Made by a program: the position numbers and the translations under genes
Notes under the pieces: model-generated
What the model saw: the letters and a program-made list of their open reading frames with translations, nothing else
What the model was told of the DNA's origin: nothing
The model's database searches: none
Assembly: GCF_000338295.1 (NCBI RefSeq)
Contig: NZ_ANMO01000256.1
Coordinates: 1-64,000, forward strand
Reading direction: 5' to 3'
From: Rhodopirellula europaea 6C
GTDB lineage: Bacteria > Planctomycetota > Planctomycetia > Pirellulales > Pirellulaceae
DNA length: 64,000 nt
Shown here: in pieces, positions 11,228 through 39,621 of the stretch
Layout of the letters: each line of letters starts with the position of its first letter
Position numbering within the stretch: the first letter of the stretch is position 1

Positions 11228-14200
11228 TTAGAACAATTCTCGCACGGCGGCATCCAAGTTCGATTCCAAAGAATCGGACTCTTCGCCATCGCGTTTGGTT
11301 TGCTCATTCGCGATCAAGTCAATCAGGTCCACTTCCGCGTTGGTCGCTGAGGATCCAACCATTTTCGATGGTCCTGAGTCAACGGACTCAGCAGCCGACG
11401 AAGTGGATGCATCCAAACCGGCCGATGTGCTGAAGTCGCTCGCCAGAACTTCGGTCGGTTCACCGAATCCGGACTGGCTTTGAGCGTTGATCTCGTTGAT
11501 CACCCGCAGTGCATCCAGCGAAGAGATGAATCCATCACCACTTTGGTCGTAGTAGAACTGTTCGTTCACACCATTGTTGGTGCCGATGCCGAAGTCCGCA
11601 TCGGTGACCGGGATGTTTTCACCGCTGGAACTACCGCTCACTTCGTTCAGTCGGTTGATGATCAACAGAGCATCCAGTGCGGTGACTTCGCCGTTTCGGT
11701 TGACGTCGGAGAAGTTGACAGGGTTTTGCAGTCGACTCATCACCGTGTTCAGGTTCATGCGAGTCGGTGCACTTCGGTTTCCGTTGATGTCAGCGACGGT
11801 GAAGATCAGGAAGTCCGGTCCGACGTAGTCAGTGTCCGGCGTGTACATGATTTTTCCGTCGATCACTTCTGCCGTCCCGTTGGTGGGCTGGGTCGTGATC
11901 AAAATTGACGTCAGGTCCAAATCAAACGCTGTGTTGAAACTGTCTGAGATGTCAATCGCACCGGTTCGTCCGACGGATGTTCCCGCGGTGATGTCCGAAG
12001 CGGTTGGACGTCCCTGGAGTTCAACCGTTGCCTGAGCACTGGCTTGGCCCAAGTCATCGGCGATGGTGTAGGTGAACGTGTCCACGCCAGCGAAATCAGG
12101 GCCAGGCAGATAGGTCAGCACACCGTTGTCGTCGGACAGCGTTCCGAATTGAGGTTCGACCACAATTGTCAGTGAAGTGCGGTCCAGCGTTCCGTCGATG
12201 TCCGAATCGTTGAACAATGGATCTCGCATCTGGTCCAGCACGGTTGTGCCGACTGATTCGATGAACACGCGGTCGTCGACAGCAACCGGTGCGTCGTTGC
12301 GACCTTGAATGGTCAACGTGACATTCGCGGTCACGACGCTGGTCACGCCACTGTCGTCTTGCAATCCGTACTGGAACGTGTCCGTTGCCGTTTCACCTGG
12401 ACGGAGCGACTGAATCGTGTCCGAACCCATTGGTGTGTACGAGATTTCGCCGGTTGTTTGATTGACATTGACGATGGCACCCAACGCGGTTGTGGTTTGC
12501 AATTCCACAAAGCTGAGGATGTCGCTCAGGTCAGGGTCGCTATCGTTGGCGAGCAAATCCTCGATCGTGAAGAACAACACCGCGTCTTCCGTGGTCGTGA
12601 ACGAGTCATCGACAGCAACTGGAAGGTCGGGTTGATCAGTGATCGTGATTGACAAAGTGACGGGCTGGGAACTGCCAGCGAAGACACCATTTTCGAAGTC
12701 TTGCAACGTCACCGTGACGTTAGTGCTGCCCGCCGCATCAGGAGCCACGCTGAAGGTCAGCACTCCATTTTCGTCGATCGATGGCAGCACCGAGAAGAGA
12801 TCTTGATCCTCTGCTGGAACTTGAACCAGGAACGCGACGGTTTGATTGCCTTCGTTTCCAGGTCCGGCGGAAATATCCGTCGCCCATGGTTGCGAATACG
12901 TTCCACTGTCTTCCAGGACCGTGACAGCGGGGCCAGCCGTGAAGGTTGGCAGATCGTTCACGTCGGCAATGGTTAGCGTGAACTGAACCGGTGCGCTTTC
13001 CCAAACGTCACCGTTGGCCGGGTTATTGGGGCCACTGTCGACAGCCACCAATTGGTAGGTGGCGGATCCGCTGTTTTCGTCCGAGGTTGTGAACTGCAGC
13101 GAACCGTCCGACAGGATCTGCAACCCGGCTGGATTGCCAGCCGACGTGGCGAGCAAGTCGGTGTCGCCACTGACATAGGAGAATCGGTACTCGGTGATGG
13201 TCTGAGGTGCCGTGGTTCCGGTGCCGTCAAATTCATCCACCGCACGTCCGCCGGATCCCGTTCCGGGAGGTCCAACCAAGACGGTGCCGAGCCAATCCGG
13301 AAGGGTAACCGTGCCGGCACTTTCTTCCACGACGATCGGTGCCAAAGGCGAGATGATCGGAGCGTCGTTGACCGGAGTCACCACCAGCGAGATGGTTGCC
13401 GATGTGGTCCGCGATGCGTCGCCGTCACTGACTTCGTAAACGAACTGGTCGGTGCCGACAAAGTTCAATGGTGGCGTGTAGACGTAGGACGTTGCTCCCA
13501 CGCCGTTTGGCGAAGGAGTCAATGTGCCGCCCATTGCGGTTTGCAACGGAACGTTGACCGCGGACAAGGTTTGCGAATCGTTTTCGTCTGGCAATCCATC
13601 CACTGGCGAATCAGGGCCAGCGATAAAGTTGCCGAGCAACGAACCGTTGATCACACCGTCGACTGGGATGGCCAACGTGTTGTCTTCGCGAGTCGCGATT
13701 GTGACCGTGTCACCCGTTCCATTGGCAGGGATCGGTGCGTCGTTGACCGCGAGCACATTGATGGTGATTCGTTGAGCCAATGACTCATTCAAATCCCCAC
13801 GTCCAAAGTTCGGTCCTTGACCGTTGTCTTGGCCATAGATGTCAAACACGAATTCGCCAAACACGCCTGGAGCGGCTTGGAAGGTCAAGTGGCCGGCAGG
13901 CACGATCGTTGGAAGCGTCGTGAAAGCTTGAGCCGCTTGAGTTGTTGACACATTGACCGGTTCGATGCGATTGAACGACACCGTTTGGGCAGCGGTCAAG
14001 CTGAACTCGTCGTTGGCCGTTGGCGTGGGGCCACCGAACACGTTGAACGCAAAGTCATTGCGGACAAACATGTTCGCGTCTTCGCTGACATTGATCACCG
14101 TTTGTGCGATGTCGAACACCGGACGGTCGTTGACCGGATTCAGAACAAACTGAATGCGGCCTGTGCGTGTCAGCGGTGACGTGTCCAGGACTTGGTCACG

Positions 14201-20200: not shown

Positions 20201-23200
20201 AGTGGCGGCGGCGCTAGTCAGGCTGCCGTGACCAACGCTGTCGAGTGACTCGCCTGGGAAGTTGCCCGCTCCAGGAACTGGGATCTCAGAGAAGTCTTCC
20301 ACGAAGTAGGTGAACAGGTCCGTGGCGTCGAACGGTGATTCTTCGTTGTAGTCCACGTTGGGTTCGTAGGAACCACTGACAAACTCGCCACTGCCGGCCA
20401 AGAACATGCCCGGGTTGGCGGGGTCAGGAACCAAAGAGAACGTTAGCGAAAGACTGCCACGCGCGGTGGCCAAAGTTTGGACCGGTGCCAAACCTGTGAC
20501 GGTGTCGTACGTGAGCGTGCGGGCATCGATCGAACCGCCCGTGCCACCCGGCAAGCCAATTTGGATGACGCGCAGGTCTTGTGCATCTTCGTCGAACAAG
20601 GCGGGGAAATCACCGGGCGGGGTGACTTCCAGGGCCGACCCGGGGGCACCGAGTCGCAGCAGGTCGTCTTTCGTGAAATTTCTGAGGCCATTACCATCCG
20701 ATTTGGCAACCGGATTGGGATCACCGGTTCCGTTGACGAACTCTTCGTACTCAAGCAAGTCAAGTGAGAGGTTTTCAGCTTGAGGAGTATCGTTGACCGG
20801 TTTGATCAGGATCCGAACGGTCGCGGTGTGAGTGAGGAAGTCGTCGACTTCGTTCATCGATCCAGGCGTCCCCTCGGGGCCTAAATCAAATGTGATACCT
20901 CCGTCTGTCACCGTGTAGGTGAAGGAGTCTTCGCCGTAGGTATTGCGAGCCGGTGTGTAGACAATGTTTCCGTCAATATCGATCGAAACTGTTCCACCCA
21001 AATTGCTGGTGGCGCTGACAGCCGTGACAGTCAATCCCGAGTCATTGGTGTTGTCATTCTCGTCAGCTGCCGAGTCACGAGCTTCTTTGTCGTTCGCGAT
21101 CAGGTAGGCCTGAGGGATGACCAGAGTTTGGTCTTCCGTGGGAACAGGCACCGACGCGATTGGGTTCATCGGGTCGGGGCCAATGAAGAACGCGTTCCAG
21201 ATTGGATTCTTCTCGCTAATGACGTCGTCGGCGGCGATCGGTGCATCGTTCTTCGGTTTGACGTCAATCTCCGCAGTCGCCTGGGCGGTGAGTTTGGCAC
21301 CCGTGAACAAGGTATCGTCCGTTGGATCGACCAGGTCCGCGCCAGGATTGACCAGCACGCCATCGTCTTCGATTGTGAACTGGAACTCATCACGCAACAG
21401 CGAATTGCCATTCGCGTTGTCTTGGTTCAAGTCCGTGTCGGCCAAGTACTCGATGGTTTCTAAGAACCCAGTTGCCGCTTCCCAGGTTGGAATGATTCGG
21501 CCCCGTGGAGTTTTGAAACCATCGGCGGGGATTGGTGTGGTCCAGTCGATATCGGTGACAACTCCTGCCACAGTGGTCTGCAGCGAGATGACATTGAACG
21601 TTTGGATCGATTCGTCCCATGGTGCCGACTGAGTCGAGCCATCAGGGAGTGTCAATGTGAACTCGCGATTTCCGTCGCCAAATGCGCTGGCTTTGAGTTG
21701 TTCCGCCGTGAAGGTTCGCGTCGTGTCTTCCAACGCGAGCAATGTCAGGTTCTCGACAGAAGGCACATCGTTGACGGGTTGCACGTTGATGGACACTGTC
21801 GCGACGCCAATCGGATTCCCGTTCACGTCGAAGACAGGGTTTGCCAATAAGGTCGCTTGGTCGGCCAAGCGATAGGTGAACGTGTCAATGCCAGCGAAGT
21901 CGGCTTTGGGAACGTATTGGAAGTGCCCTGTGAGAGGGTCAATGGAAAAATTCTCAGCGTGTTCGGGTCCATCGACCAAGACCACCGTCGTTGGCGCAAA
22001 TGGAGTCAGCAGATCGTCTGCCGCTGCGGTTGGACCGAACAAGACAGACGACAGTCCCATTTCCGCAGTTAGAAGTGATTGATCCTCAAGTAGTTGGTAG
22101 AGGTCATCTTGCGGTGTCGGGATTGGTGCCGGAATGATTTCGACTTGATAGTCCTCAACCTCACCGCCCACAGCCAAACCGTCGGAGGCCAAACCGCCTT
22201 CGGGCGAGATGCGGAACCGTGCCCAGGCCATGCCGCTCGACGCGGTGGTGGGAGTGACGATGTTGAGAATGTTATCGCCAGCGCTGAGCGGAACGCTTCG
22301 GAAGATCTGTTCGCCACCGTCTTCAGAGGAGTCGCGAGGATCGAAAAGTTGATTCTGGTCCCAATCAATCCATGCGTCCAAGAAACCACCGTTGGGAGCG
22401 TTGATCAGGATCGACGCTCCATTGGAATTGTTGGGGTTCAGGTATCCCAAGACGCCAATCGAACCGATGCTTGGATCTATCAGGGAATCGACAAACACGG
22501 TCTGCGAGGTCGTCTGGTTCTCCAGGCTGACCAGATTGCCGGCAAAACTGACCAAAAGACTGGTGCCGTAACCCGCAAGCGTTTGGTCAATGCGTGCTGC
22601 CAAACGAGCCGCGATGTCATCGATCGAATCCGAGGCTTCGTAGCGAACCGCGATGGTGCCAGAGGTCGAAGACTGCGGCTCTGTTGCTAGCGGATCTATT
22701 TGCAAGAATTCGAAGGTCTTCGAACCAGCCAAGGTGCCAAGATCAATGACGATCTGATCACCGTTAGAAGGCAGCGATTGGACTTCGATCGTCGCCGGGT
22801 TGGCCGGTGACGCTGCCACGACCAAGGAAGATGGATTGGAAGGCGTCGCAGTGATGACTCGTTGCGTATTGGGAGATCCAATGCCGACCCCATCCTCATC
22901 ATCGAAGTTGGTCAGCGACAGTGAGGGTTGCATCGGAACCAGCGTGTCGCCCAACGAAAACTCGACATCAAACGCTTGACCAAAGTCTTCGAACACTGAC
23001 GCGATGGCATTGTGAACGTCTGCGGTGAATCCGTTGAGCTGGTTCATGATTTCAACCGCGTCGGTCAAGACCGAATCGTCAAAGATCACCGACACATTGC
23101 CTGGCTCAGCGGAACGTCCAACGGTGACAAATTCAAACGTCACCGGTCCGCGTGGACTGCCGATATCAATCGTTAACGTGTCGCCGAGCATCGGCATCTG

Positions 23201-26200
23201 AACCACTTCCATGGTGCTGACACCAGCGTTGTCTACCGGTGCTGCAAACGCCAAGGAACTCGTCGTGATCACGACTGGGAGTCGATCGTCGTCGGCCGCG
23301 TTTGGTGATCCGGCAGTGGCGGCATCTCGTTCCGCATCAATGATCGAGCCCAAGCGAATGAAACCATCGTCGATGATTGCATGACGGGCTCCGTTGGAGC
23401 CCAAAGTCGTGCCGAAGCCGTCGATCGCGTCGCCGTAGTCCAAGTTGACAGTCGGAAGAATGATCGTGAACTTGGTCTCACCATTTTGTTGGTTCGGACG
23501 AAGGAAATTTCCGGCGCGGTCGGCAATCCGTTGGTTGTCCAAGAAAATTTCGTAAACACCACTTGGCTGCCAAAGTGTGGTTAGTGGCGTTAAACGCAAC
23601 TCACCGGTTGAATCGTTGAAACCAAGCCGGTAGTCCACACCTTCGACAAGTTCGATGTTATTGCGTCGCACCAAGATTGAATCACGATCGACCGTCGCAG
23701 GATTGATGCCCGTGCCTTCGAATGGCGAGTTCTCGTCTCGGCCATCCCCAATCAGGATTGAAAAAACATCCAGGATGGGATCATCAAGCGAGACGACGGT
23801 TGGATTGGGATCTTTATCCAGCCCGGCATTGTCATCATCAATCGGTTTCAACAGAACGGCATAAGGTGCGTCCGTATCTGCTCGGTCGATTGCTCCCTGA
23901 TCGATGAATGGATCAGCTCCACTGCCGCCACCAGATTGACCGGAGTCGACACGCAGTTGACCAAAGACATCTCGCTGCGGCGCGTCAATGTTCGATCGAG
24001 CGATTCCCAGTTCCGTCTTGAACGTGACATAGGCGAGACGATCGGGCAGCGTCTCCTGCGAATTGTCGATCGCCGCCGAACCGGATTCGAGGTAATAGTT
24101 GCGAGTGGAACGATCAATGAACAAGGGGGCGTTTGGCCCAGCCAGTTCCGGATTGGTACCGGTGGTGCCGTTGGATGCATTGCCTTGGAAGTAGTTCTTT
24201 CGAACTACAGTATTGACGGCATTGAAACCCTCAACATCAATTGCGGTTCCAAATTCCGAAAGAATATTGTTGATGATCGTCGGTGCTGCTTGCCCGACCA
24301 CATCAATCCCGAGTCCGTCCCCAAAGCCAACCAGCGTGTTGTTGACGATTCGCCCGAATGGCACGGATCGTCCAGCTTCGGTGCTCGTCTCGCCCGCGAA
24401 ACGGATGGCCGAATCACCGGACACGACGTTGTTCTGAATCACCACGCCGGGAACCAAACGAGGCGAGTTCAATTGCGGGAAGTTGATCAAGGATCCTTGG
24501 TGAGGCACGCCAGTTTCTTCCGCGGTGCCTGGCTGGACATTGATCCCAACATCATTCGAATCGGAGATGAAGTTGGAATCAATGATGAACATGCCCTGCT
24601 GACGCTCTCGGTTTTGGTCAGCGAGCAAACCGGTGGTGCCGCCGAACATCGTGACGCCGTCTTCCGACAAGATGTGTCGAACATTGGTGTCAAACGGTTG
24701 GAACGTCCCATCAAAGTCCGGAATAATGTTGGCATCTGCTAAAGATGCATATTCATCGACGCGTCGAATTTCGACTTGATAAGGTCCCGATAGAATCTCT
24801 GGGTTGCGATTCGGATCGCGATTGCTATAGCGAGGATCGTTCAGCAGCGTGAAGGTTCCGGAATCAATATTGATGGCCCGCGTCCCGCCTTGCAGAGCAC
24901 CTTCGACGGAAGGAATTTGGGCGGGAACGGTGACCATTTCGCCTCGTTCGGCGTAACCGACGATAATGTCGTCGATATAGAAACCTTCGAAGAAATTATT
25001 CTGTGTCGCATTGGAGCGAGAGTTCGAAGAGATTTCACCGAAAGCGGACGGAATGCCATCGCCGACGATACGTCCTGCTGTACTGAAATCAAATCGAAGT
25101 TGCAGTCCCGTTTCCCCGGCGAAAGACGACAAATCAATTCTTGCTTGACGCCACGAACCCGTGTTGTCGAAAAGTTCTTGAACTATTTGATGATTTTCAG
25201 CACGCTGGGTGGTGCTGTTCAAACCTGCGTCGGACAAATGCGAAATGAATCCGGGAAGCTCTCCATCTGGGTTCTGTGATGGGTCATTCGCACTGAGCGC
25301 GGAGTTGTTGGTTGCAACCAGTTCCCACTCTCCCGTCGAGGGCCGCAACACGAATACACGGGCAGCGTCGCGGAACGGATCCTGACCATTCGCCGTGGTT
25401 TCACCCGGATGATTTTCCGTCTCCAAAAAGTAGTTGACGTAGAGCGTAGGACGATCTTCCGCGACCGAACCAGCCAAATCGAAAGAGTTCGAGACTAATT
25501 GACCTTGAGCACCACCGGCAAGGGCGTAAGTGTTGACCAAGTTTGGGTTGGATGCCAAGTCACGATGTAATTCTTCAGATAGTCCATACTGAGCGTTTAC
25601 GCCGTCATAGGTGATGTACCCTTGAGTTGTATTGTTGAACTGGTTGTTTGGAATCCAATCTTCCAATCCAAAGTAGAAGCTTGCACCACCGTTGTTCTGT
25701 CGGAAGTTTCGGGTTCCGTCTGGTGTCAATGAATCGAGATACTCCACATCAATCTGACCCGGCTCGCGTGACCCGTCCGGGGCCTCATTGATACCGTGAC
25801 CGACATCGCCTGCGCGACGTGTTGTTGGGTGCCAGAGATTCAAGTCCAAGGGACTGAATGCCAATCCGACGGGGGCGTCGCCTCGGGCCGGCGCAATGTC
25901 ATTCAATTGAGCGAACAGGGCCGTTGGGTTGCCTGAATTGTCGGCAAAAATATTCTGCAGCACTCCAGCTGAGTTGAAAGCGTACAACTGTCCGCCTGTC
26001 GTGGTGGCGAACATCAAGTCCGCGTAAGCACCATTTTCGACGCTCTGAGGGCCAAGCGCCAGCGCGCTGAACTCAGCCCCGGGTACAACATTGAGTATCT
26101 GCGCAATACCACTGTTTTCATCGATCAGAATAATTTCACCGGCGTTTGTCACCCCGAACAGATTTTGTTGTGCAATCGGGTCATCGAAAGCAATGCCGGT

Positions 26201-29200
26201 GACGCGCCCGGCCAACGCAACGCCGCTCGCCGGCGTACTGAATGGAGTCGATCGGTTGTTAGCGACGGTTCCACCATTTCCATCGCGATTACCGTTGGCA
26301 TTGCCGCCATAGATTGCGGCTGTGACTATCTGACGAGCGACGGGGTGGGTGTTGATTGCGTTCACGATCGCATTGGCATTTGGGCCTCCGCCGTTGTTGT
26401 TTCCAAGACGTAGAGTAATGGAGCGTGTGTTGATGTTGGCATTGGTCACGACAGCGGCCGTGTCATTTCCAGCATTCACGATGTTCAGCGTGAATGCGCC
26501 GGCCAAACCGGGTTGGTTGGATTGGAAACGAATGTCCGTCCGTGCAGCTGGGTTGGCGTTGTTGGAGATTGAAAATGTGTCAACCTGAGGCGTGACGCCC
26601 GCGAGATTGATGTTCCCCATCACACCATATTTACGGTTTGCTGCTTGGTTGGGGTTGCCACCGTTGGCAGCCACCGGCGCGGCGCTGCCGCCCTCATTTC
26701 CTCGATACAACTTCGACGAATTTTCCGATTCACGAACGACATAGTAGACATCGTAGGTGGGAGTCGCCGTGGCGGCTCCGGTTCGTTCAAACGCCAATGC
26801 ATCGACATCGCTGGAGTTCGTAAATTCAGCTAAACGAGGGTCGTTGACTGTTCCGCGATTCGCATTCGTTGTCAGGTTAACATTCAGATCGCTGGCGTTG
26901 ATCGGGGGAGCTTCACCAGGAATGTTGTCGTCCGATACCGCGGTGAGTGTCCCGGTGGCAGGATCGATCTCGACCAATCGGCCGACCGAGTTGCCCAAGT
27001 TGTCGGCTCGTTGATAACCGAACATCCGGCCGTCACTGCGAATCGTGATGTCCTGGATGTCATCGTTCGCTGGTGACCAACTATTTTGTGAAACGGGGCG
27101 TGTGTACGTGCCTCCGTTAAAAGGATCGGCGAGATACAGTTGGTCGTCGGCGTTGGCGACCGGGCGTTCGGTCGCGATGTACAAAGGCACATTTTCAAGC
27201 GAGAACGCGGGCAGGTGTTGTTGTAAGTTGGCTGAAGAGTCAATGTTGAAGATCGATGATTGGGGCTGGATCGGCAATCCATTTGGAAAAAACGGATCCA
27301 GTGGGATTGTGTTGTAACCGGAGAATCCGATCCGATCTTCGACAACACGATCAACTGAGTTGACTGGTTCCAGCCGCACGTAACGATTGTCGGCTGTTGC
27401 TCCGGGTTGGAACGCACCGTTGGCGTCAAACGTTCCCAAATTGTCATACTGGCCCATCAGAGCACTTGGCGTGACGCCGTTGCCCATCACTGCGATGTAG
27501 TACTGGCCTCCCGTGACCAAATGAACCGGGCCAATGTAAGGATCTTTGGTGCCGAGCGATCCTCGCGAAAGATCATCGATGTCGGGATCGGAATCAATGG
27601 TGTCGGGCTGATCGTCCTCGATGTTGGACTCGCGTCCAACGAAGATCAGCTGGCCACTTTCATCGTAGACGGCAAGAGTCGTATCGGCTCGGTTGGCCTT
27701 ATCGGCATAGTCCATATCAAACACGACCGCCATGGTTCCGGCTGCATCGTTTACACCGCCGATGACCTGAACACCTGTCTGAGTCGCATCAAAACGATAC
27801 CAATCGACATCGAGATCGCGGTTATTGACTCCCAGTTCCTCGCCCAGGTTGCCGGAAATAGAGATTGCTGCCAGGTCACTCTCGAGCAAACTTTGAAGTG
27901 GTTGTGCCTGGGCAAATGTATTATTGGCGGCTCCTGTGACCTCACCTGCCTCACCCAAAATATGACTGCGAGCTGGCAATCCACTGACATCAATGCCGCG
28001 ATTCGCATAGCGAATGTCGGCATACTGGACCGTGCTACCAGGGTATTCATCCACTTGCTGCAAACGGATTTGCATGTGGTACTGGCCACTGCTCGTCCCG
28101 TTGAGCGATGTTGGTGTTGATCCCAGTGAACGGACGCGGATGAAGTAACGCCCCAGCGTTCCCAGTGTGCCGGGTAAAACAAGATGCATCCCTGCGTCGC
28201 GGTAATTCTCGGAGTTGAAATCGCCACCGAGCAGTGGATTCTGAATCAGCGGCAAGTTATTCAACGAACCCGCTTCATTCGGATCGAACGAGCTCATCGA
28301 TCGAGCCACCACGGTCCCGTTGGCATTGAGCACTTCGATAACGGTGTCAAGCGAAGAGTCCGTTCGATCGATGTCCAGCCAGACCGGTGTTCCCGCCGTT
28401 CCTTCAAAACTGTAGACATCCAGGTCCTCGGGCGAATCGGGGCTGATGAACCCTTGGACCTCAAAGCCGAGTCTTCGGTTTTCGTCGCCGCTCTTTTGGT
28501 CGGGAGCCAAGGTGCCCACAAACTGGGCGACACCCGGGAAGGAGTTCTCGTCTTTCCCCGCCGTCAACGGCGTTTCGCGTTCTCGGACAACAGCAACGTT
28601 TCGGTCGTTGCTGAATTCGTCAAAACTCAACCCACGCCAATCCCCTTTCTGACCGCCGGTTTGACCATCGTTTCCGGTGTCGAACAAAAAAGCGCCTGTC
28701 GGTGTGAATCCGGCACCCACCGAGTCGTCTTGAAGACTGGTCAAGATCACTGGGAACCCAGGGGAACCCGACACGGTGACGGTACCACCAATTCGGTCGA
28801 CGATTTCGGCGGGAGACCCAGTTGCGGTGAACCCAGCGTTGTTGCCCTGTAGCTTCACCACCAGGGATTCACTTCCGCTGCTGCGAAGCGTCAGACCGCT
28901 ATTGGAATGATGATTGCCGACCACGATTTCATTCTGGAGGACATGAACAATGTCGGTGTCGTCCCAAATGGATTCCGTCGTCAGCACTTCGCCCCGAACG
29001 AGCATGCCGTTGATGCCGTTGTTCTCGAATTGATTTAATCGGACCAACGGTCCAACATTGTCGTCAAATTCTGAGAAAACCTCCAACCGACCAGTGCTGC
29101 GACCATAGTCAGGAGTGTTGGTGAACTGGAGCGAGTTGGCATTGATGTTGATCGCGGGTCCTTCGTTGTCGACAATCTCATTGCCGACAATGATGGGTTG

Positions 29201-32200
29201 TGCGCCGCGAACGTAGATCGTGGCGGACGCGTTTGCACCGCGCCCGTTGCGCACGCCGCTCGCGTTTCCATTCGCATTGTCACTGATCAATGAATTGGTG
29301 ATCCGCACTTCAGCTTGGTGAATTTCAATCACATTGAAATTTGCGGATCCACCTTCGATCGATGAGTCGCCACCACCATAAGAAATGATGGCATTGTCGA
29401 TACTACCCGAGCTCGTGAAGCCGAAGTAGAAACCGCCCCAGTCGCCAGGTAGTCCGGCCGACCCAGGTGTGTTGGTCGTGTCATAAACTCCGCTGCTACC
29501 GTATCGATCATCATTGATGGAGGTGAAGATGACGGGGCGGTTTTTGGTGCCTTCGGCGATGATGGCTGAGCCACCCGCTTCCGCTTCAATGCGAGCGCCT
29601 GCCGACTTGATGACGATGCCCGGATCGACAAGCAGGCGTCCCGACGCGCGGCCTGATAATTCGCCGGTGGTCTTGTCTAGGTAGCGACCGCCAACGTTTC
29701 CGGCGATCACCAAATTCTCAGTCAAGACGTGCGCGATGTCCGTGTCGTTGAATCGACCCGGTGTGGTCAATTTAGTAACGACTTGACCATCTTGAGTCTC
29801 AATCCGAATGAACAAACCGTTGATGGTATTGTTCGCCAAATAGTTACCGACAATTTCGGGCCCGATGCGTCCACCGGACTCATCAAAACTGTCAGGGCTG
29901 GCCGAAACCGCGGCGCTGTTGCTATCGGTGATTCGGTTGAACGCGATCGATGGTCGGGAATCGATCACGTGAATTGGGCTGAATGAATCTTCGGCGGAAT
30001 CGACGAAGACCTTGCCACCACCGTGTCGAATGTCAGTGTGTGAGATGTAGTTGAGGAACATGCCCGAGGATTCCAAGTCGGAATCGTCGCGAAGTACGAT
30101 CCCGCCGAAGTCGCCCGCGCTGGGCGGATTGACCGCCGATGAACCCGTCGAATTGCCACCGAAAGTGCTGTCAAAGTACGAACGCAGCCAAACTGGAACA
30201 TCGGGTGTTCCCAGTACCTGAAGCGCAGCTGCGGAACGATCGATATCGATGGAAGACGATCCGACATCCAAGTTCGACTTCCGCATCTTGAGCAGCGCTC
30301 CCGCGTCAATCATCGCGGTGACGCCTTGCGGAACGCGAAATTCAGCACCATCGCGAAGCGACGCGCCACTTGTCGCAGTACCGATCAGATACGGTTTGAT
30401 GTCGGCGGTGGTGGATGGATCGCCATCGGCGTCGTTGCCGATAATCCGAACCAAGTTCGGTGTGTTCAGTAATGTGTCTGAGCCAGACAGATCCAATCGT
30501 TCAATCCCGGTCAGTTCGACGGTTCGACCAACCACATTGGCACTTCCTGGCAACACAGCATTGATAGCAGAAGCGGTCGCTACAGCAGCGTCTTCTGGCG
30601 AGCCACTGGTGGCCAAGGTGATGCCGCCGGCCCCAAAGTGAAAGCTTTCTGTTTCGGGGGTTCCATTGACTGTGCGAATGATTTCAAAGGTGTCACTCGC
30701 ATCGAGTGCATCCAGACCTACGGTCGGGAACACAATGCGTTCACCGGCACGTTGCAACGCTTGCCCAATGTTGTCAAACGCATTGCCCAACGTCCCGTCG
30801 CCATCCAGCGCAGCTGCGTTAGGATCGTTCAAACGGTCGACGAAAACGGTGGTGCTTACGTCGCTGGCTTGGAAGTAGAACGAGAAGACGCCGCCCGGGG
30901 TTCCATCTCGGTCGCCGTCAATAGGAGTTCCATCAACATCGCGGAGGACAGACGCGGACTCACCAGCAAATTTCAATTCCAGTTCATATTGACCATCTGT
31001 CGTGCCACCAAAACCAGAGTCAGGAACCAAAGGGTTGTAGTCTTCGTTGTCAGTGCTGCTGACACCGATCAGATAGGTGCCCGCTTCGAGGTCGACGTCA
31101 AGGAATGAGTCGTTGCCGAAGTAGCGATCGTTTCGGGCGATGATGTCCATCGATCCATCGTCGTTGATGCCAAACAAGGTCAAGACAGTGCTTAGGCCGC
31201 TTGGCGTCGAAAGGCGTTCGGCGAAAGTCTCTGCCGTGAAACGTCCTCCTTCCGCAACTGCGAACTTGTAGAGGTCGATGTCAGTCGCGTTAGGTGGAGA
31301 AACGCGTTGCAAGTGAACAATATCATGATCTCCAGGCAGCACGTCATTTGGCAACGGAGCTCCTTGAAGAGAAGGGATGTCATAAGAGTGGCCGAGCCCC
31401 AGTGAGTGTGCAATTTCATGCATCATCGTCTCTGTGAAACCGTCACCAAAGAAACGATTTGATTGATTAAACAAGGTGCCATTCAGGATTGCGAATGTGC
31501 TATTCGCCAACCCGGCGACACCATCGTTCGGTCCCAGGCTGGGTGAGACGGCTCTGAAATCCCCTTTGCCGATCATCAGCTCATCGAGTCCGGGCACTGT
31601 TTCCGATGTTTCTACAAATTCGTATCCCGACAAGCCGGCGAAGATATCGAACAGAGTGCGGACAATTTCCTTTTCTTTTTCGGTAATCAGGTTGATGTAG
31701 TCCTGGCCGTTGGCATCAGTCCCAAGAGTGTCCGGGAAGTAATAGCGAACAATCTCGATCGATGACGGAGCGATCAGATTCGTTCCTTCGTCGTTTCGAA
31801 CATGGGGTTCCCGCTGGATTTCTCGGTGCCCCGGCTCGTCGGCTCCACCAACGCGTTGAGCGAGCGGGACCGATTGAACTTGGATTTGTGAAGCAATGCG
31901 AACACCGGTCGCATCCAACGTCACGGGACTCGCTGGCGTTCCAGTCAGATCGCTGGCGGTGAGCAGAGTCGAGTTGTTGTCGTTGTTGGTGAGTGAGGTA
32001 CTCGGAACGGTGGGAGAACCACCAACTGGCGTGCCCGCTTCGCCAATGTCCAACCGATAGTTACCCTCGGGGATCGGTCCCGAAAATTGAAGTGTGACCG
32101 TGCCTTCGGCAACGTCGTAGGTCGCCAAATTGGGCTGCAACGGTGCGAGCTGATCATCGGTCTTGTCCGCAGTCGCGCGGGTATCGATCAGCCGATAGAA

Positions 32201-34282
32201 AGCGGGGTTTTCGGCATCGCCAATGTCCAGAAGCTGTCCGTCAAAGTGAATGACGATCGTGTCCGATTGCTGTGAAAGCGTGCCTTCGGGATTCGCTTGC
32301 GTCGCGTTGGCCCGAACAACTGGCTGAGGCACAACGGCGACAACCTGGGCTCCACGGTTGAGGCGGAAGGTCGTTTCGAAGTTGTTGCCGCCATCGAACG
32401 GTACTCCGGCACGACTTTGCAAAGGTGAGTTGCCCTCGCCGATGAGCACAATTTTGTACAGATCGTCAGGAAAGCCAAACGATGGATCGAACGCATTGTG
32501 GGCCGCATTGCTGGCCGGTCGCATCACGATTTGCTGAAGATTGCTGGCTTCGATGCTTCCTGATTCGAGCAGGCCGACGTAACCCAATTCAACTTGGATG
32601 TCATCGTCGATTGGATTGCCGCTAGCGTCCAAGTTGTCCGGATTGGGACCAAAAATCCCATCCTCGCCGGCGCGGATCAACTTCACGGTGTCGCTGCTGA
32701 TCGTTGCTTCGTCGAGATCAGCGCCACCATTGAAAAAGAGATTGAATTCATTCGGCGCAGCTTCAAGCGTATCGCCGTCTTGCAGGAGCCCCGAGTCATC
32801 AGGACGGATCGCCAGCAAGGTGGGGCCAACGATAACGCGAGCGGAATTGCCTACCGACATGCGATAAGCTTGCGAGTCTGTTCCTGAGAAGGCGGAAACC
32901 TCGACAAAGTAAGATCCTTCCGCCAACTGTACTTTTGCGCGGAATTCCGCGTTGCCCAATGTGTTGTCGTTGGACAACGAGATCTGATTTCCGCTTCCAT
33001 CTAGCAATCGAAATTGCAAGTCCTGTTGACGCTGGCGATCCACTTCAACCGGGGCGGCACCGCCTTGTTCGCCCTCGAAATAGGCAGACCCAACAGGCGT
33101 CACGATCAGATCAATTTCGGTGGGGTGGCTGAGTGAAAACGCAAAGACATCCACATCCGTATTCGGACTATCGATCGACACATCGGTGATGGTTTGGGCA
33201 GCGAGGTCGAGGACCCCGAGATTGACTGCATTTGCCATCGTGTCGTTTGGCTCCATCGCGTCGCCGTACAACATGTTGATATTGAAGACATCATCTTCTT
33301 GCGGACCGTAGTAGTTCGCGCTAATGAATGGCTCCATCAATTTGGTGCCGTTGGTCGGCATCACATGGCCCAACCCCAACCCATGACCAATCTCGTGACT
33401 CAGAATGTTGGTCAATTCAATATTGAGATCGAACGCCGAATTCGCCGTGTCCGAATAGTAACGGTCCGTCGTGTCGATGATCATGTCGCCGTCTAAGCCA
33501 ATGGAACCGAATCCATAGGGTGGGTAGTTGGCGGCCAAGACGTTGTAGTCACCGTCGATCGCGGCCCCCGCGATTCGCAGGTCGGCACGCACGTCCGCTT
33601 CGCCAATGCTAGCGTCGGCGGCCCAAGGTGCCATGTCATCATCGTCCTCGTAGACGAAGCTCAAGCCTGTCCCTACCGACCACACGTCGTAGACATTGGA
33701 GAAAATCCCGAACCATGGTTTTTCCGTGATCTCATTGGTCGCTCCGCTGCCATAAACGCTATCGAGGAATCCGACCAAATTGCTGGTGCCGGTGGTGTTG
33801 CCCGTGTTTGGGTCCAGCATCGGCGTTCCGTCAGGAACGATGCTCCATGTCAGCGTGATCGGATCGCCTAAATTGGGTGCGCCACTGGGATTTAACGCTG
33901 ACGTCCGCCAACGCAACGGGTCCGTTGGATTGAAAAGGATGGGTTGAAGCTGAGGGCCAAACTGAAAACCAGGCAGTTTTGTGCCAGATGTGATCGCGGC
34001 ATGATTGTCGCCGTGTTCCTCATGCCACTGCTCAATGGTTTCACTCGGTGTGCCAGGAGCGAATACCGGATGAGCGATCAGTCCCAACTCCGCGGCGAGG
34101 AGTTCTCGTTTTTCGAGCGTTTCGTGGTTCAGTCGGCGGTCAGCGGTCTGCCATTTGCTTCGTCGATCACTCCGGGTGCGGCGGGATTTACCGGAACGTT
34201 GCCCCTTGGTTCCTCGATCGGATACCGAGGAAGCGTCTGAAGCAGCGGTGCCCAACAAAGAATGAAAGCGTCGAAGCGTCAT
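11228..34282 (-). CDS. Giant secreted multidomain protein (two metzincin sites, beta-helix, cadherin-like repeats, dockerin-like end)
   Basis: One uninterrupted frame of 23 kb, about 7,684 residues from the ATG at 34282 (MTLRRFHSLLG). An ATG at 34645 would give 7,805, but the extra 121 residues look non-coding. Numbering is from 34282. A basic N-terminus leads to LEKRELLAA at residues 56-64, matching the LEPR-xLL tag of large planctomycete exoproteins. Zinc-protease motif HEIGHGLGLGH is at 296-306 and a second, HEIAHSLGLGH, at 955-965, both of matrixin form. PPC-like beta domains lie near 340-430. Parallel beta-helix segments occupy about 1330-1810 and 3220-3370. A GEVED-like domain is near 3960-4045. 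Cadherin/Ig-like modules with NDAPV linkers fill the rest, including a tandem array at about 4500-6415. A dockerin-like pair (DVNRNGEVTALDAL, DQSGDGFISSLDAL) lies at about 7524-7602. Likely a cell-surface or matrix protein; the substrate is unknown. Confidence 0.9.
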   Translation of the reverse strand: MTLRRFHSLLGTAASDASSVSDRGTKGQRSGKSRRTRSDRRSKWQTADRRLNHETLEKRELLAAELGLIAHPVFAPGTPSETIEQWHEEHGDNHAAITSGTKLPGFQFGPQLQPILFNPTDPLRWRTSALNPSGAPNLGDPITLTWSIVPDGTPMLDPNTGNTTGTSNLVGFLDSVYGSGATNEITEKPWFGIFSNVYDVWSVGTGLSFVYEDDDDMAPWAADASIGEADVRADLRIAGAAIDGDYNVLAANYPPYGFGSIGLDGDMIIDTTDRYYSDTANSAFDLNIELTNILSHEIGHGLGLGHVMPTNGTKLMEPFISANYYGPQEDDVFNINMLYGDAMEPNDTMANAVNLGVLDLAAQTITDVSIDSPNTDVDVFAFSLSHPTEIDLIVTPVGSAYFEGEQGGAAPVEVDRQRQQDLQFRLLDGSGNQISLSNDNTLGNAEFRAKVQLAEGSYFVEVSAFSGTDSQAYRMSVGNSARVIVGPTLLAIRPDDSGLLQDGDTLEAAPNEFNLFFNGGADLDEATISSDTVKLIRAGEDGIFGPNPDNLDASGNPIDDDIQVELGYVGLLESGSIEASNLQQIVMRPASNAAHNAFDPSFGFPDDLYKIVLIGEGNSPLQSRAGVPFDGGNNFETTFRLNRGAQVVAVVPQPVVRANATQANPEGTLSQQSDTIVIHFDGQLLDIGDAENPAFYRLIDTRATADKTDDQLAPLQPNLATYDVAEGTVTLQFSGPIPEGNYRLDIGEAGTPVGGSPTVPSTSLTNNDNNSTLLTASDLTGTPASPVTLDATGVRIASQIQVQSVPLAQRVGGADEPGHREIQREPHVRNDEGTNLIAPSSIEIVRYYFPDTLGTDANGQDYINLITEKEKEIVRTLFDIFAGLSGYEFVETSETVPGLDELMIGKGDFRAVSPSLGPNDGVAGLANSTFAILNGTLFNQSNRFFGDGFTETMMHEIAHSLGLGHSYDIPSLQGAPLPNDVLPGDHDIVHLQRVSPPNATDIDLYKFAVAEGGRFTAETFAERLSTPSGLSTVLTLFGINDDGSMDIIARNDRYFGNDSFLDVDLEAGTYLIGVSSTDNEDYNPLVPDSGFGGTTDGQYELELKFAGESASVLRDVDGTPIDGDRDGTPGGVFSFYFQASDVSTTVFVDRLNDPNAAALDGDGTLGNAFDNIGQALQRAGERIVFPTVGLDALDASDTFEIIRTVNGTPETESFHFGAGGITLATSGSPEDAAVATASAINAVLPGSANVVGRTVELTGIERLDLSGSDTLLNTPNLVRIIGNDADGDPSTTADIKPYLIGTATSGASLRDGAEFRVPQGVTAMIDAGALLKMRKSNLDVGSSSIDIDRSAAALQVLGTPDVPVWLRSYFDSTFGGNSTGSSAVNPPSAGDFGGIVLRDDSDLESSGMFLNYISHTDIRHGGGKVFVDSAEDSFSPIHVIDSRPSIAFNRITDSNSAAVSASPDSFDESGGRIGPEIVGNYLANNTINGLFIRIETQDGQVVTKLTTPGRFNDTDIAHVLTENLVIAGNVGGRYLDKTTGELSGRASGRLLVDPGIVIKSAGARIEAEAGGSAIIAEGTKNRPVIFTSINDDRYGSSGVYDTTNTPGSAGLPGDWGGFYFGFTSSGSIDNAIISYGGGDSSIEGGSANFNVIEIHQAEVRITNSLISDNANGNASGVRNGRGANASATIYVRGAQPIIVGNEIVDNEGPAININANSLQFTNTPDYGRSTGRLEVFSEFDDNVGPLVRLNQFENNGINGMLVRGEVLTTESIWDDTDIVHVLQNEIVVGNHHSNSGLTLRSSGSESLVVKLQGNNAGFTATGSPAEIVDRIGGTVTVSGSPGFPVILTSLQDDSVGAGFTPTGAFLFDTGNDGQTGGQKGDWRGLSFDEFSNDRNVAVVRERETPLTAGKDENSFPGVAQFVGTLAPDQKSGDENRRLGFEVQGFISPDSPEDLDVYSFEGTAGTPVWLDIDRTDSSLDTVIEVLNANGTVVARSMSSFDPNEAGSLNNLPLIQNPLLGGDFNSENYRDAGMHLVLPGTLGTLGRYFIRVRSLGSTPTSLNGTSSGQYHMQIRLQQVDEYPGSTVQYADIRYANRGIDVSGLPARSHILGEAGEVTGAANNTFAQAQPLQSLLESDLAAISISGNLGEELGVNNRDLDVDWYRFDATQTGVQVIGGVNDAAGTMAVVFDMDYADKANRADTTLAVYDESGQLIFVGRESNIEDDQPDTIDSDPDIDDLSRGSLGTKDPYIGPVHLVTGGQYYIAVMGNGVTPSALMGQYDNLGTFDANGAFQPGATADNRYVRLEPVNSVDRVVEDRIGFSGYNTIPLDPFFPNGLPIQPQSSIFNIDSSANLQQHLPAFSLENVPLYIATERPVANADDQLYLADPFNGGTYTRPVSQNSWSPANDDIQDITIRSDGRMFGYQRADNLGNSVGRLVEIDPATGTLTAVSDDNIPGEAPPINASDLNVNLTTNANRGTVNDPRLAEFTNSSDVDALAFERTGAATATPTYDVYYVVRESENSSKLYRGNEGGSAAPVAANGGNPNQAANRKYGVMGNINLAGVTPQVDTFSISNNANPAARTDIRFQSNQPGLAGAFTLNIVNAGNDTAAVVTNANINTRSITLRLGNNNGGGPNANAIVNAINTHPVARQIVTAAIYGGNANGNRDGNGGTVANNRSTPFSTPASGVALAGRVTGIAFDDPIAQQNLFGVTNAGEIILIDENSGIAQILNVVPGAEFSALALGPQSVENGAYADLMFATTTGGQLYAFNSAGVLQNIFADNSGNPTALFAQLNDIAPARGDAPVGLAFSPLDLNLWHPTTRRAGDVGHGINEAPDGSREPGQIDVEYLDSLTPDGTRNFRQNNGGASFYFGLEDWIPNNQFNNTTQGYITYDGVNAQYGLSEELHRDLASNPNLVNTYALAGGAQGQLVSNSFDLAGSVAEDRPTLYVNYFLETENHPGETTANGQDPFRDAARVFVLRPSTGEWELVATNNSALSANDPSQNPDGELPGFISHLSDAGLNSTTQRAENHQIVQELFDNTGSWRQARIDLSSFAGETGLQLRFDFSTAGRIVGDGIPSAFGEISSNSRSNATQNNFFEGFYIDDIIVGYAERGEMVTVPAQIPSVEGALQGGTRAINIDSGTFTLLNDPRYSNRDPNRNPEILSGPYQVEIRRVDEYASLADANIIPDFDGTFQPFDTNVRHILSEDGVTMFGGTTGLLADQNRERQQGMFIIDSNFISDSNDVGINVQPGTAEETGVPHQGSLINFPQLNSPRLVPGVVIQNNVVSGDSAIRFAGETSTEAGRSVPFGRIVNNTLVGFGDGLGIDVVGQAAPTIINNILSEFGTAIDVEGFNAVNTVVRKNYFQGNASNGTTGTNPELAGPNAPLFIDRSTRNYYLESGSAAIDNSQETLPDRLAYVTFKTELGIARSNIDAPQRDVFGQLRVDSGQSGGGSGADPFIDQGAIDRADTDAPYAVLLKPIDDDNAGLDKDPNPTVVSLDDPILDVFSILIGDGRDENSPFEGTGINPATVDRDSILVRRNNIELVEGVDYRLGFNDSTGELRLTPLTTLWQPSGVYEIFLDNQRIADRAGNFLRPNQQNGETKFTIILPTVNLDYGDAIDGFGTTLGSNGARHAIIDDGFIRLGSIIDAERDAATAGSPNAADDDRLPVVITTSSLAFAAPVDNAGVSTMEVVQMPMLGDTLTIDIGSPRGPVTFEFVTVGRSAEPGNVSVIFDDSVLTDAVEIMNQLNGFTADVHNAIASVFEDFGQAFDVEFSLGDTLVPMQPSLSLTNFDDEDGVGIGSPNTQRVITATPSNPSSLVVAASPANPATIEVQSLPSNGDQIVIDLGTLAGSKTFEFLQIDPLATEPQSSTSGTIAVRYEASDSIDDIAARLAARIDQTLAGYGTSLLVSFAGNLVSLENQTTSQTVFVDSLIDPSIGSIGVLGYLNPNNSNGASILINAPNGGFLDAWIDWDQNQLFDPRDSSEDGGEQIFRSVPLSAGDNILNIVTPTTASSGMAWARFRISPEGGLASDGLAVGGEVEDYQVEIIPAPIPTPQDDLYQLLEDQSLLTAEMGLSSVLFGPTAAADDLLTPFAPTTVVLVDGPEHAENFSIDPLTGHFQYVPKADFAGIDTFTYRLADQATLLANPVFDVNGNPIGVATVSINVQPVNDVPSVENLTLLALEDTTRTFTAEQLKASAFGDGNREFTLTLPDGSTQSAPWDESIQTFNVISLQTTVAGVVTDIDWTTPIPADGFKTPRGRIIPTWEAATGFLETIEYLADTDLNQDNANGNSLLRDEFQFTIEDDGVLVNPGADLVDPTDDTLFTGAKLTAQATAEIDVKPKNDAPIAADDVISEKNPIWNAFFIGPDPMNPIASVPVPTEDQTLVIPQAYLIANDKEARDSAADENDNTNDSGLTVTAVSATSNLGGTVSIDIDGNIVYTPARNTYGEDSFTYTVTDGGITFDLGPEGTPGSMNEVDDFLTHTATVRILIKPVNDTPQAENLSLDLLEYEEFVNGTGDPNPVAKSDGNGLRNFTKDDLLRLGAPGSALEVTPPGDFPALFDEDAQDLRVIQIGLPGGTGGSIDARTLTYDTVTGLAPVQTLATARGSLSLTFSLVPDPANPGMFLAGSGEFVSGSYEPNVDYNEESPFDATDLFTYFVEDFSEIPVPGAGNFPGESLDSVGHGSLTSAAATVTVTTHATNDTPEFPVFDTVTFAEDINDAGDAFNTVFYDIYGEAVIASADPAVHNLPQAIFVSRDTAEDERGNNSGAAPTQSLTYSYNTLYEPAGMFESAPVLDEYGVLTLTPRADAYGYALYEVTMTDNGQSYDPATGMLVDDFRSVTRTLTVHITPINDAPVTEDRALEVMEVEEFSSPDDMPTGAVASIDLTPDQFLGGTTENPELAEQSDFTDDIDAVDEFDEEEQSLRVVKFTVTLANGSTADVDAENNNGVELTLATGRITFNFDDIADGGAYTGGTYFPNVDYNEESPFAPNEQFTYVVEDFGVTTIPGSMDVTGTTEQVDYTNDGGSPPQGLNNRSTPRTMTLTTRAQNDVPEFPVFGEVTFAEDINDAGDAFNTVFYDIYGEAVIASADPAVHNLPQAIHVSRVTAEDERGNDSGALPTQSLSFSFTTLYEPAGMFETTPTLDEYGVLTLTPRADAYGYAVFVVTLTDDGGSYNLPNDPRSIDRTLTVHITPVNDAPVTVDRALEVDEVEEFASPDDSPTGDVASIDLTPEQFLGGSTENPEFAEQSDFTDDIDAVDEFDEEEQSLRVVEFTVTLADGSTAVVDAENNNGVELTLATGRITFNFDDIADGGAYTGGVYYPNVDYNEESPFAPNEQFTYVVEDFGTTSIPGSQFINGGAADEVDYTNDGAMPPVGLNNRSTPRTMTLTTRAQNDAPEFPVFNTVTFAEDINDAGDTFNTVIYDIYGESIIASADPAVHNLPQAIFVSRDTAEDERGNAGGAPATQSLTYTYNPLYVPAGMFESDPVLDEYGVLTLTPRADAYGYAVYTVTMTDDGQSYDPNTGMLVDDFRSITRTLTVHITPVNDAPVTVDRALEVVEAEEFANETGLPTGDVASINLTPEQFLGGSAENSELAEQSDFTDDLDAVDEFDEEEQSLRVVEFTVTLADGSTVVVDAENNNGVELTLATGRVTFNFDDISIGGAYTGGVYYPNVDYNEEAPFAANEQFTYVVEDFGTTSIPGSQFVNSGAADEVDYTNDGAMPPVGLNNRSTPRTMTLTTRAKNDAPEFPVFDTVTFAEDINDTGDSFNTVFYDVYAGNVVANYDPADPMRPQAIFVSRDTAFDERGDGLGFAPTQSLTYTFTSLASSSPAGMFETLPTMDDFGVLTLTPRADVYGWAVFEVTATDDGSDYDAAAGLISSPRSITRTLTINITPVNDAPVSVDRDLEVTEVEEFSSPNDLPTGAVARLPLSPADFLGGTPENPTLAKASDFSDDTVTFEEFDEDEQGLRVVEFTVTLANGSPQTVNAGNYVNGTLIDLFSGTIWFEFDATTGEFVTGEYLPNVDVNDQLPFEPTEVFQYIVEDFGPTSIPGSDRPDPDAIGSIDYTTVGGVGSNNRSQPRDMTLTVRAVNDVPDFPEFDTVTFAEDINDAGGAFNTVFYDIYGGQVIGSNNPLVHGLPQAIHPGRDTALDERSVQELSYSVSVISSPAGMFASDPILDRFGVLQLQPNADAYGYAVFALTMTDDGQSYISGSMQDDPRSITRTLTVNITPVNDQPVAYDRELTVNEVEEFFPITGQPTGRVAVLDLTPETFLEGNPSDAQTADFADGVVTTNEFDEDEQDLRVVQFTVTNSSGTPTVVSRDNLNGVEIPLATGTVTFNFDASGTFVSGQYLPNVDYNQEDPFLDFERFSYIVEDFGETSIPGSDYVNGQMAPPVAGFQQADYTTVGGVGSNNRSESRRVTIRTIQVNDAPRVEFRETVDIRERDDNRGTSLTDWATRRDPAETTALDEFDRQDVFFTFKQYVSQSVPDLFRPGFTPEVSDDGTLTVYPSPDAVGTGVFVITATDRVSDTDPFTPKSTEMTVTVNVRPVNDQPRLSDIAPTGQTGSIDDAYEITSDGTLIVTMKEDNTANDGTTGTPYSIPLRSAGPGARPGLLDIYTPGPANESDGTLGGNQKVELVPFTTLPTTLGGSVTYVPENGSTPASLEYTPPTNVNSLNNLPDSFTYQVIDDGTNFNIRDQVLDTSPLTRTGRIQFVLNPVNDRPVFDIAQTVINVSEDANMFVRNDFAFNVFGGPTPTANDEFSLTAAQTVSFNRIEPVNVSTTQAAQAFTTLPTIVPAGHLTFQAAPGVFGEFVFDIYGQDNGQGPNFGRGDLNESLAQRITINVLAVNDAPIPANGTGDTVTIATREDNTLAIPVDGVINGSLLGNFIAGPDSPVDGLPDENDSQTLSAVNVPLQTAMGGTLTPSPNGVGATSYVYTPPLNFVGTDQFVYEVSDGDASRTTSATISLVVTPVNDAPIISPLAPIVVEESAGTVTLPDWLGTVLVGPPGTGSGGRAVDEFDGTGTTAPQTITEYRFSYVSGDTDLLATSAGNPAGLQILSDGSLQFTTSDENSGSATYQLVAVDSGPNNPANGDVWESAPVQFTLTIADVNDLPTFTAGPAVTVLEDSGTYSQPWATDISAGPGNEGNQTVAFLVQVPAEDQDLFSVLPSIDENGVLTFSVAPDAAGSTNVTVTLQDFENGVFAGSSQPVTLSITITDQPDLPVAVDDSFTTTEDAVLFFTIEDLLANDSDPDLSDILSFVELQTTTALGAIVNVNQTTGEISYTPMGSDTIQSLRPGETATDTFQYGLQDDSGVTSVVTANVTLTIQGRNDAPVAVDDRVFIESVGTTVLDQMRDPLFNDSDIDGTLDRTSLTIVVEPQFGTLSDDNGVLTYLPGPDFAGVDTFTYTIADDLGQASAQATVELQGRPTASDITAGTSVGRTGAIDISDSFNTAFDLDLTSILITTQPTNGTAEVIDGKIMYTPDTDYVGPDFLIFTVADINGNRSAPTRMNLNTVMSRLQNPVNFSDVNRNGEVTALDALLIINRLNEVSGSSSGENIPVTDADFGIGTNNGVNEQFYYDQSGDGFISSLDALRVINEINAQSQSGFGEPTEVLASDFSTSAGLDASTSSAAESVDSGPSKMVGSSATNAEVDLIDLIANEQTKRDGEESDSLESNLDAAVRELF
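15040..20790 (-). repeat. Array of about 1.04-kb tandem repeats inside the giant gene
   Basis: A recurring anchor at 20081, 19037, 18005, 16958 and 15920 (the codons around FNTVFYDIYG) gives spacings of 1044, 1032, 1047 and 1038 bp, all multiples of three. Each unit of about 347 residues has two modules. The first begins PEFPVFDTVTFAEDIND and the second carries EVEEF, PNVDYNEESPF and VEDFG. A sixth copy of the second module lies at each outer end, so the array is about five and a half units. The two central units (about 17.1-19.2 kb) are the most alike. Many differences between copies are third-base changes. Confidence 0.9.
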
Positions 34283-34992
34283 GAGAAACTCAAAGAATGA
34301 AGGGATCCAGCCACGGTCACCGTGACAGCGAAGCGAATCGAAATAATCAGATGAAAAGCTTGAAAATGTCGTTCTAGACAGGTTCTCACGCACCGATTGT
34401 GGTCGAAATCGGAGCGCAGTGGGGGCCTGCCGGACGTCTGAAGATAATTGGATTGTCAACTTGGCGGCGAGAAACTGCTCAGAAATTCGATCAATTTGTC
34501 GCTTCAACCGTTGCAAACCAAACGACCGAGAGCCCCCAAAAGGACTCGTCGGGCTGCCCAAATAGAATCCAACGCTCGGTGCCGTTCCATCACGGGGCAG
34601 ATCAGGGGATGTTCCCTGACCCGGATTGGTGGGATGCCGACGCACCGTTTTTCACGTGGCCGGCTTCGGATTGAATCCGCGCCCCGAGCTCGCTGAAAAG
34701 CAAAACTTTGCTTGCGAATGAGCCACGTTGGATCGCCGCGAAGGCGTCGTTCGTTGAACCAGCCACTTTCTAAATTTTGGTGGCTGGCAAAAGTTTCAAG
34801 CCCGGTTGTCGCGTGAGGCTGGGGAAAGCCATCGGTCGCAAATCGTTCAACCTGACCCGATCCACGAAACTTCGGGGCTGGCTTGGGGTTCATTTCAATG
34901 TACGCTTGGAAGAATGCTTTCGCCCTCGGGCGGCCAATGTGCCAACCGGTCAATCCGGCGGGAGCCCTTCCTACCCATCCCACCTTTGCAGA
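34283..34992. promoter_or_regulatory. Divergent regulatory region between the giant gene and the gsp operon
   Basis: About 710 bp between the likely start of the giant gene (34282, minus) and gspG (34993, plus). It contains a perfect 8-bp inverted repeat CCAGCCAC/GTGGCTGG with a 13-base A/T-rich spacer (34759-34787) and a 7-2-7 dyad AAGCAAA-AC-TTTGCTT (34698-34713). Either could be a regulator site or, for the first, a leader hairpin of the gsp transcript. Both promoters should lie here, but I cannot place -35/-10 boxes with confidence. The in-frame extensions of both genes through this region do not look like protein. Confidence 0.5.
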
Positions 34993-35481
34993 ATGTTTCG
35001 ACTCATGATGCTCACTGATCACCACTGTGTGGCTCACCGAGCCCGTCGCCAAACCGCGACATCGACTTCCCCTCGCTCTCGTCGCAGCACCGCTGCTCGC
35101 GCCGGCTTCACGTTGTTGGAACTGTTGCTGGTGCTCTCGATCCTGGTCGTGATTGGCGGGATCGTGTTGGTCAACATCACCGGTGCCCAAGCCGAGGCGA
35201 ACGCCAACGCGACGACAACCCAGCTCAACTCGCTGAAGAGCAACATCCAGATGTACCAAATCCGGATGAACTCGTTGCCAGAAACGCTGGAGCAACTCCG
35301 CGATGGACCCAGCGACTCGGCCAAGAAAGCCAAGTGGGTTGCTCCGATCATCACAGAAATTCCTCTGGATGCCTGGGGCAACGCATTGACCTACAGCGTG
35401 AACGGAAACACGTTCGAGATTCGCAGCGGCGGAATCGACGGTCAAGTCAACACGGATGATGACATCATCGTGTCAGGCTGA
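34993..35481 (+). CDS. gspG: Type II secretion major pseudopilin
   Basis: Main subunit of the periplasmic pseudopilus that pushes folded proteins through the outer-membrane secretin. About 162 residues from the ATG at 34993; ATGs at 35005 and 35008 are alternatives. The prepilin peptidase site is RAG/FTLLELLL with Gly at residue 38, an unusually long leader, followed by the hydrophobic helix LVLSILVVIGGIVLV. The C-terminus has the GspG hallmarks IPLDAWGNALTY and the acidic, calcium-loop-like GGIDGQVNTDDDI. It is first of seven gsp genes on the plus strand, with 5 bp to gspH. Family assignment is strong. Confidence 0.93.
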   Translation: MFRLMMLTDHHCVAHRARRQTATSTSPRSRRSTAARAGFTLLELLLVLSILVVIGGIVLVNITGAQAEANANATTTQLNSLKSNIQMYQIRMNSLPETLEQLRDGPSDSAKKAKWVAPIITEIPLDAWGNALTYSVNGNTFEIRSGGIDGQVNTDDDIIVSG

Positions 35482-35486
35482 TTGCC

Positions 35487-39606: not shown

Positions 39607-39621
39607 GTAAACTATTGCACC

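Follow-up and report, generated by a model that had tools for sequence, protein, structure and literature searches.

The 64,000-nt stretch of Rhodopirellula europaea 6C DNA analysed here (the window; its genome, G000, is an assembly of 273 contigs) raises the question of whether a frame of some 23 kb represents one real gene and, if so, what kind of protein it encodes and how this differs from other planctomycete giants. The minus strand carries an unbroken open reading frame at 11228–34645 in the ORF list of the window (7,805 codons from a GTG), whose residue 122 is the ATG at 34282; no other in-frame ATG lies upstream of the LEPR-like tag as far back as the preceding stop. Taken from this codon (GTG or TTG starts are also conceivable), the gene occupies 11228–34282, measures 23,055 bp from ATG to stop and encodes 7,684 residues. 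The spacing between ATG and tag is the same in close orthologues, where the protein begins M-T-L-R-R in genomes G002, G004, G005, G009 and G011; the start reads M-S/P-R-R in G001, G003, G006, G007 and G008. Given this single upstream ATG and the constant spacing of start and tag among close orthologues, we consider the sequence-only reading, which had proposed one uninterrupted gene for about 7,700 residues at these coordinates, to be right. Creation of the frame by misassembly was rejected, as the orthologues in the single-contig genomes G002 and G004 also lie in long stop-to-stop frames (7,732 and 7,236 residues, respectively), and the C-terminal half compared between the window and G004 has a dN of 0.032 and a dS of 0.42 (dN/dS ~0.08).

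Pfam and NCBIfam scans, motifs and a structural model recovered all of the domains that the same reading had listed, namely the tag, two metzincin motifs, beta-helix, GEVED, cadherin-like modules and dockerin (all on the minus strand; residue numbers of domains and breaks follow the 7,805-codon frame and not the 7,684-residue protein). The LEPR-like tag LNHETLEKRELLAA (Planc_extracel, PF07595; 34088–34141, residues 169–186) scores 24.5 bits, just below the cut-off of 25.5, and that of the G004 orthologue 28.3 bits, above it. An exchangeable N-terminal cassette, which we call the head, follows at 21836–34057 (approximately residues 197–4270). Its first recognised domain is Peptidase_M10 (PF00413; 33263–33715, residues 311–461) scoring 62.6 bits against a cut-off of 24, in which the family match is joined by the HExxHxxGxxH zinc motif HEIGHGLGLGH from residue 417 (33365–33397) and by LMEP, which we read as the Met-turn. 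The second metzincin-like stretch (Reprolysin_3; 31385–31525, residues 1041–1087; 29.3 bits, cut-off 22.4) has the zinc motif HEIAHSLGLGH from residue 1076 (31388–31420); the zinc ligands H, E, H, H are unchanged in all 13 aligned relatives, with D replacing G in the motif of G001 and G008. The model of this second region is poor (pLDDT 64.7, pTM 0.42) with no obvious Met-turn by eye, and its PDB matches are mainly of its PPC-like beta-sandwich to collagen-binding domains of collagenases (TMq ~0.11), with weaker matches to further beta-sandwiches, among them a domain of a clostridial enterotoxin. A right-handed beta-helix was modelled for residues 1380–2050 (28496–30508; pLDDT 73.8, pTM 0.78), followed by a PPC domain at residues 2076–2127 that falls below its cut-off (20.9 against 25.9 bits), and GEVED (22142–22381, residues 4089–4168; 47.2 bits, cut-off 24.4) is the last recognised domain of the cassette. 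The remainder is a cadherin-like and tandem-95 array, or stalk (11846–21748, to approximately residue 7600; limits approximate), in which Cadherin_4 accounts for nine stretches, Big_9 for six, Cadherin_5 for five and tandem-95 for eight, and then a type I dockerin (PF00404; 11486–11707, residues 7647–7720; 46.7 bits, cut-off 22.9) of two D-x-N-rich repeats and a tail conserved among orthologue frames that ends in LDAAVRELF (11231–11335). A short LF-ending tail recurs in unrelated tagged proteins, and [LIVM][FW] plus two residues or fewer ends 16 of 29 tagged as against 10 of 201 untagged frames, a count inflated by orthologues.

Planctomycete giant genes, reportedly described by Reva and Tuemmler in 2008, have long been recognised, and few clues to what they do have emerged. 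Megadalton-scale surface proteins also occur in other bacteria (SwmB of marine Synechococcus is one), and our protein resembles these in size class. The earlier claim that proteins of this size are rare holds for bacteria generally and fails here, as the same genome has dockerin frames of 7,544, 6,161, 6,070 and 4,670 residues (the first two adjoin on the same strand, loci L232–L234 of contig C216), and PMC5177795 reports giant genes from every one of its 29 planctomycete genomes, including genes above 20 kb in 15 strains. We therefore rejected size as the novelty of this gene, which exceeds the 5 kb single-gene threshold used in PMC5177795 and likewise resembles the giants described there in being above 20 kb, having surface-type domains and belonging to a genome with several such genes. 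It differs from the account given there in that chromosomal position, head exchange and cohesin partners can be followed for one gene across a genus; these are the new elements, giant genes and planctomycete cohesin and dockerin sets being known (for the latter, see PMC6461901 and PMC5264255). Our literature search found no fixed slot or head exchange for planctomycete giants, which is not proof of absence.

The giant gene has a fixed place within the genus. It is divergent to an operon of GspG-, H-, I-, J- and K-like pseudopilin genes (34993–39606, plus strand) followed by a PilM-like gene and one further gene (39622–42722, plus strand); the matches from GspG- to PilM-like span 34993–41235 and several are under the NCBIfam cut-offs (GspG 71.3 of 88.85, GspK 79.6 of 130, with T2SSK_1st passing in Pfam). 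Elsewhere the window genome has secretin genes (seven matches) and GspF-type genes (18 matches). The tag L(N/H/R)HE(T/S)LEKRELLAA lies divergent to GspG in every one of the 13 genus genomes, and in the nine without a contig end in the giant frame (G000, G001, G002, G004, G005, G006, G007, G010 and G011) the stop-to-stop frame measures 6,590 to 10,012 residues, the longest of these (G010) differing in its middle and retaining tag, place and tail. A tagged divergent frame was found beside the operon in none of 20 genomes from other genera (two with less than 4 kb upstream) and in none of 56 further named loci that had 3 kb or more of upstream sequence, these two sets overlapping in species; four of the 56 (L144, L146, L150 and L196) are labelled Rhodopirellula, with GspK only 55–57% identical. 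At the loci examined beyond the genus the pseudopilin operon is thus conserved and the giant gene absent beside it, so the link between the two may be one of mere shared position. We note that the best GspK locus lacks GspG in four genomes of the Rhodopirellula group, namely N. pilleata, A. aestuarii, R. sallentina and R. rubra (L134–L137), from which we conclude that the operon is split in these four.

Within this fixed place, related species appear to have exchanged the first half of the giant, the second half staying put. Between the window and G004, the closest of the relatives compared (96.6% identity of flank proteins), amino acid identity is ~97% in the flanks, 94% in the C-terminal half and 51% in the N-terminal half, and dS is 0.40, 0.42 and saturated, respectively, a saturated value being unable to date the split of the alleles; the M10 domain is absent in G004. 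Identity breaks at approximately residue 200, right after the tag, and again at 4,250–4,300, right after GEVED (4,089–4,168). Other pairs show the converse. The N-terminal halves of G005 and G002 have a dS of 0.22 (dN 0.012) against 0.90 in both flanks and C-terminal half, those of G005 and G009 0.20 against 0.94 and 1.17, and those of G004 and G011 0.58 against 1.44 and 1.31; the pair G002–G009 is concordant throughout (N-terminal half 0.29, flanks 0.25, C-terminal half 0.29). A sharp break lies at residue 3,600 of G005, where nucleotide identity with G002 drops from 99% to 81% (the heads of G003, G008, G009 and G012 are cut downstream by contig ends). The window and G005 share flanks and C-terminal halves at dS 0.79 and 0.80 and N-terminal halves at 2.98, therefore the window head is an older member of the two-metzincin type.

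Phylogenetic analysis agrees with these distances. The GspGHIJ tree places the window genome with G004 (98/100), and an AU test rejects both head groups as clades (p 0.0009 and 0.00014). The N-terminal half tree separates G004 and G011 from G000, G005, G002 and G009, with the grouping of G000 and G004 rejected (p 2.6e-49), and the C-terminal half tree agrees with backbone and operon (rejections p 0.017 and 0.002). It should be noted that the N-terminal half tree was a quick one made without a mixture model and carried a long-branch warning, and that the dS comparison is independent of it.

These data bear on the simplest alternative, that this is an ordinary planctomycete giant surface protein whose head has diverged by fast drift under relaxed constraint, with no exchange. 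Giant genes are common in the phylum, and the 7,544-residue paralogue also has a fast segment in its middle (residues ~2,400–4,000; identity 75 and 86%, dS 1.83 and 1.52), a milder hotspot because of which head variation may not be unique to the giant gene. However, the N-terminal halves of G005–G002 and G004–G011 are more alike than their backbone, which drift cannot produce, and we therefore reject drift alone for the head. The heads are moreover under purifying selection, judging from the dN and dS of G005–G002, and the 6,070-residue paralogue has no head-type pattern, being even along its length (dS 0.27–0.51 between G000 and G004; its G002 copy was covered only in part in the comparison). 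Taken as a whole, we regard this explanation as improbable.

The order of two metzincin sites, for which a search of orthologues had been suggested, is confined to G000, G005, G002 and G009 among the 13 genus genomes; in these M10 stands ahead of the second site, and the other nine have one motif there. A query of the 1,091 residues that follow the start region matches 29 of 40 genomes at 1e-20 (own included), and among the relatives elsewhere are shorter frames, of 434 to 1,056 residues (G022 and G030). The window genome also encodes a 660-residue tagged M10–dockerin protein. It is plausible from such comparisons that the two-metzincin head arose by fusion at the tag.

Modular exchange, huge size and a fixed locus recall CdiA-type proteins, and a polymorphic toxin-like protein delivering its variable domain into rivals would also fit these features. 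The giant and the CdiA effectors described in PMC5371414 have in common that parts are exchanged on a constant frame, but the giant is without a C-terminal toxin: its variable part is N-terminal and thousands of residues long, its C-terminus is the conserved dockerin and tail, Pfam and NCBIfam show no toxin family, and the genes at the 3' end are PIG-L and metG rather than an immunity gene. We rejected contact-dependent inhibition on these grounds and consider a toxin of this kind very improbable.

What might hold the constant end of the protein is suggested by the dockerin and by cohesins in the same genomes. We found 25 dockerin matches in 20 frames of the window genome, and the frames scanned for domains (12 of the 20 besides the giants, leaving out L257, L260 and the 238- and 4,670-residue frames) include an M10 protease, a subtilase with an H-type lectin, an animal-type haem peroxidase and a beta-helix. 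At locus L255, a tagged M10–dockerin protein adjoins another tagged dockerin protein, which has an animal-type haem peroxidase. Cohesin matches occur in 12 of the 13 genus genomes, each of which thus has a candidate partner for its giant; G001 has the giant gene with a dockerin-like C-terminus and no cohesin match, which argues against docking in that genome. In the genomes inspected (G000, G002, G003, G004, G006 and G008) the cohesins are at one locus, where two tagged proteins are encoded divergently, a long one combining a single cohesin with many cadherin domains and a short one with a cohesin and an SdrD_B-like domain (L243, L245 and L246), and a third cohesin protein in the window genome is weak (24.4 bits, cut-off 24.1). 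A full-length hmmscan of the long G004 protein lists no cohesin, which we take as a filter effect because the cohesin piece alone scores 52.0 bits. A dockerin-like pair seen by eye in this protein had no Pfam support and is not claimed.

A second alternative is that the giant is part of a secreted degradative complex, its dockerin plugging a protease or beta-helix enzyme into a cohesin assembly that digests protein or polysaccharide, with adhesion secondary. The enzymes among the dockerin frames and the spread of cohesins would suit this, as would the PL6 lyases that are the top PDB matches of the beta-helix model (E 4.4e-4, TM ~0.2), and a similar idea is published for the 'planctosome' of Nemodlikiaceae (PMC6461901). 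The latter shares cohesin and dockerin modules and reprolysin-like peptidases with our system but is of another lineage and, as described in that source, has anchoring and adaptor proteins with signal peptides, LTD and P-domains, whereas a LEPR-like tag marks the proteins here and it is a protein of 7,684 residues that carries the dockerin. A type I dockerin and cohesin are also common to the cellulosome; unlike in that system, each protein scanned here has one cohesin and we found no multi-cohesin scaffold among them. The Pfam scan moreover gave no lyase family match for the beta-helix, and a stalk of 3,400 residues exceeds the needs of an enzyme. We regard a degradative complex as a credible reading, though one against which the balance leans.

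We favour as the probable explanation a secreted and surface-displayed multidomain protein in which a constant chassis, held by dockerin and cohesin, carries an exchangeable head. The chassis would consist of the Arg-rich N-terminus with its LEPR-like tag, the cadherin-like stalk, the dockerin and the short conserved tail, which is a possible sorting signal, and the head, ~4,000 residues long, of one or two metzincin sites, beta-sandwich or PPC-like modules, beta-helix and GEVED. Homologous recombination between species through the conserved stretches on both sides would replace the head. From the neighbourhood, we infer that export may be through a type II-like system whose pseudopilin genes are those transcribed divergently, after which the dockerin would dock to one of the single-cohesin proteins, of which there are two or three. 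Once displayed, the head might bind and clip or trim surface polymers (proteins or algal matrix), or meet phages and grazers, and contact with any of these would favour diverse heads. More speculatively, the locus could be a genus-wide slot tied to secretion operon and leader, in which heads are traded between species under diversifying selection by phage, grazers or algal substrate, each of them attached to the same cohesin anchors through the constant stalk and dockerin; we put this forward tentatively, as less likely than the general explanation. With its fixed locus, its named partners and a swap boundary that coincides with a domain edge, this one giant becomes testable. Should selection lie behind the head exchange, the gene would point to what these attached marine bacteria have to vary in order to survive.

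The leader region between giant gene and operon has conserved blocks of its own. One of 42 nt (34301–34342, minus strand) is invariant in six species with flank dS of up to 1.47, and since its core is otherwise met only with three mismatches (once each in G004 and G007), we regard it as a candidate locus-specific control element. A second block (34439–34462, minus strand) has at most one mismatch in the six species and, at up to three mismatches, occurs only at the giant locus within the 13 genus genomes. The blocks are possibly a regulator site or involved in translation control; an RNA structure in the leader was unsupported (z 0.32, with 124 of 200 shuffles folding at least as well), and Rfam gave no match in the window at the gathering threshold. 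Finally, the window also contains a pectate-lyase/epimerase-like beta-helix gene at 50457–51767, 16 kb from the giant.
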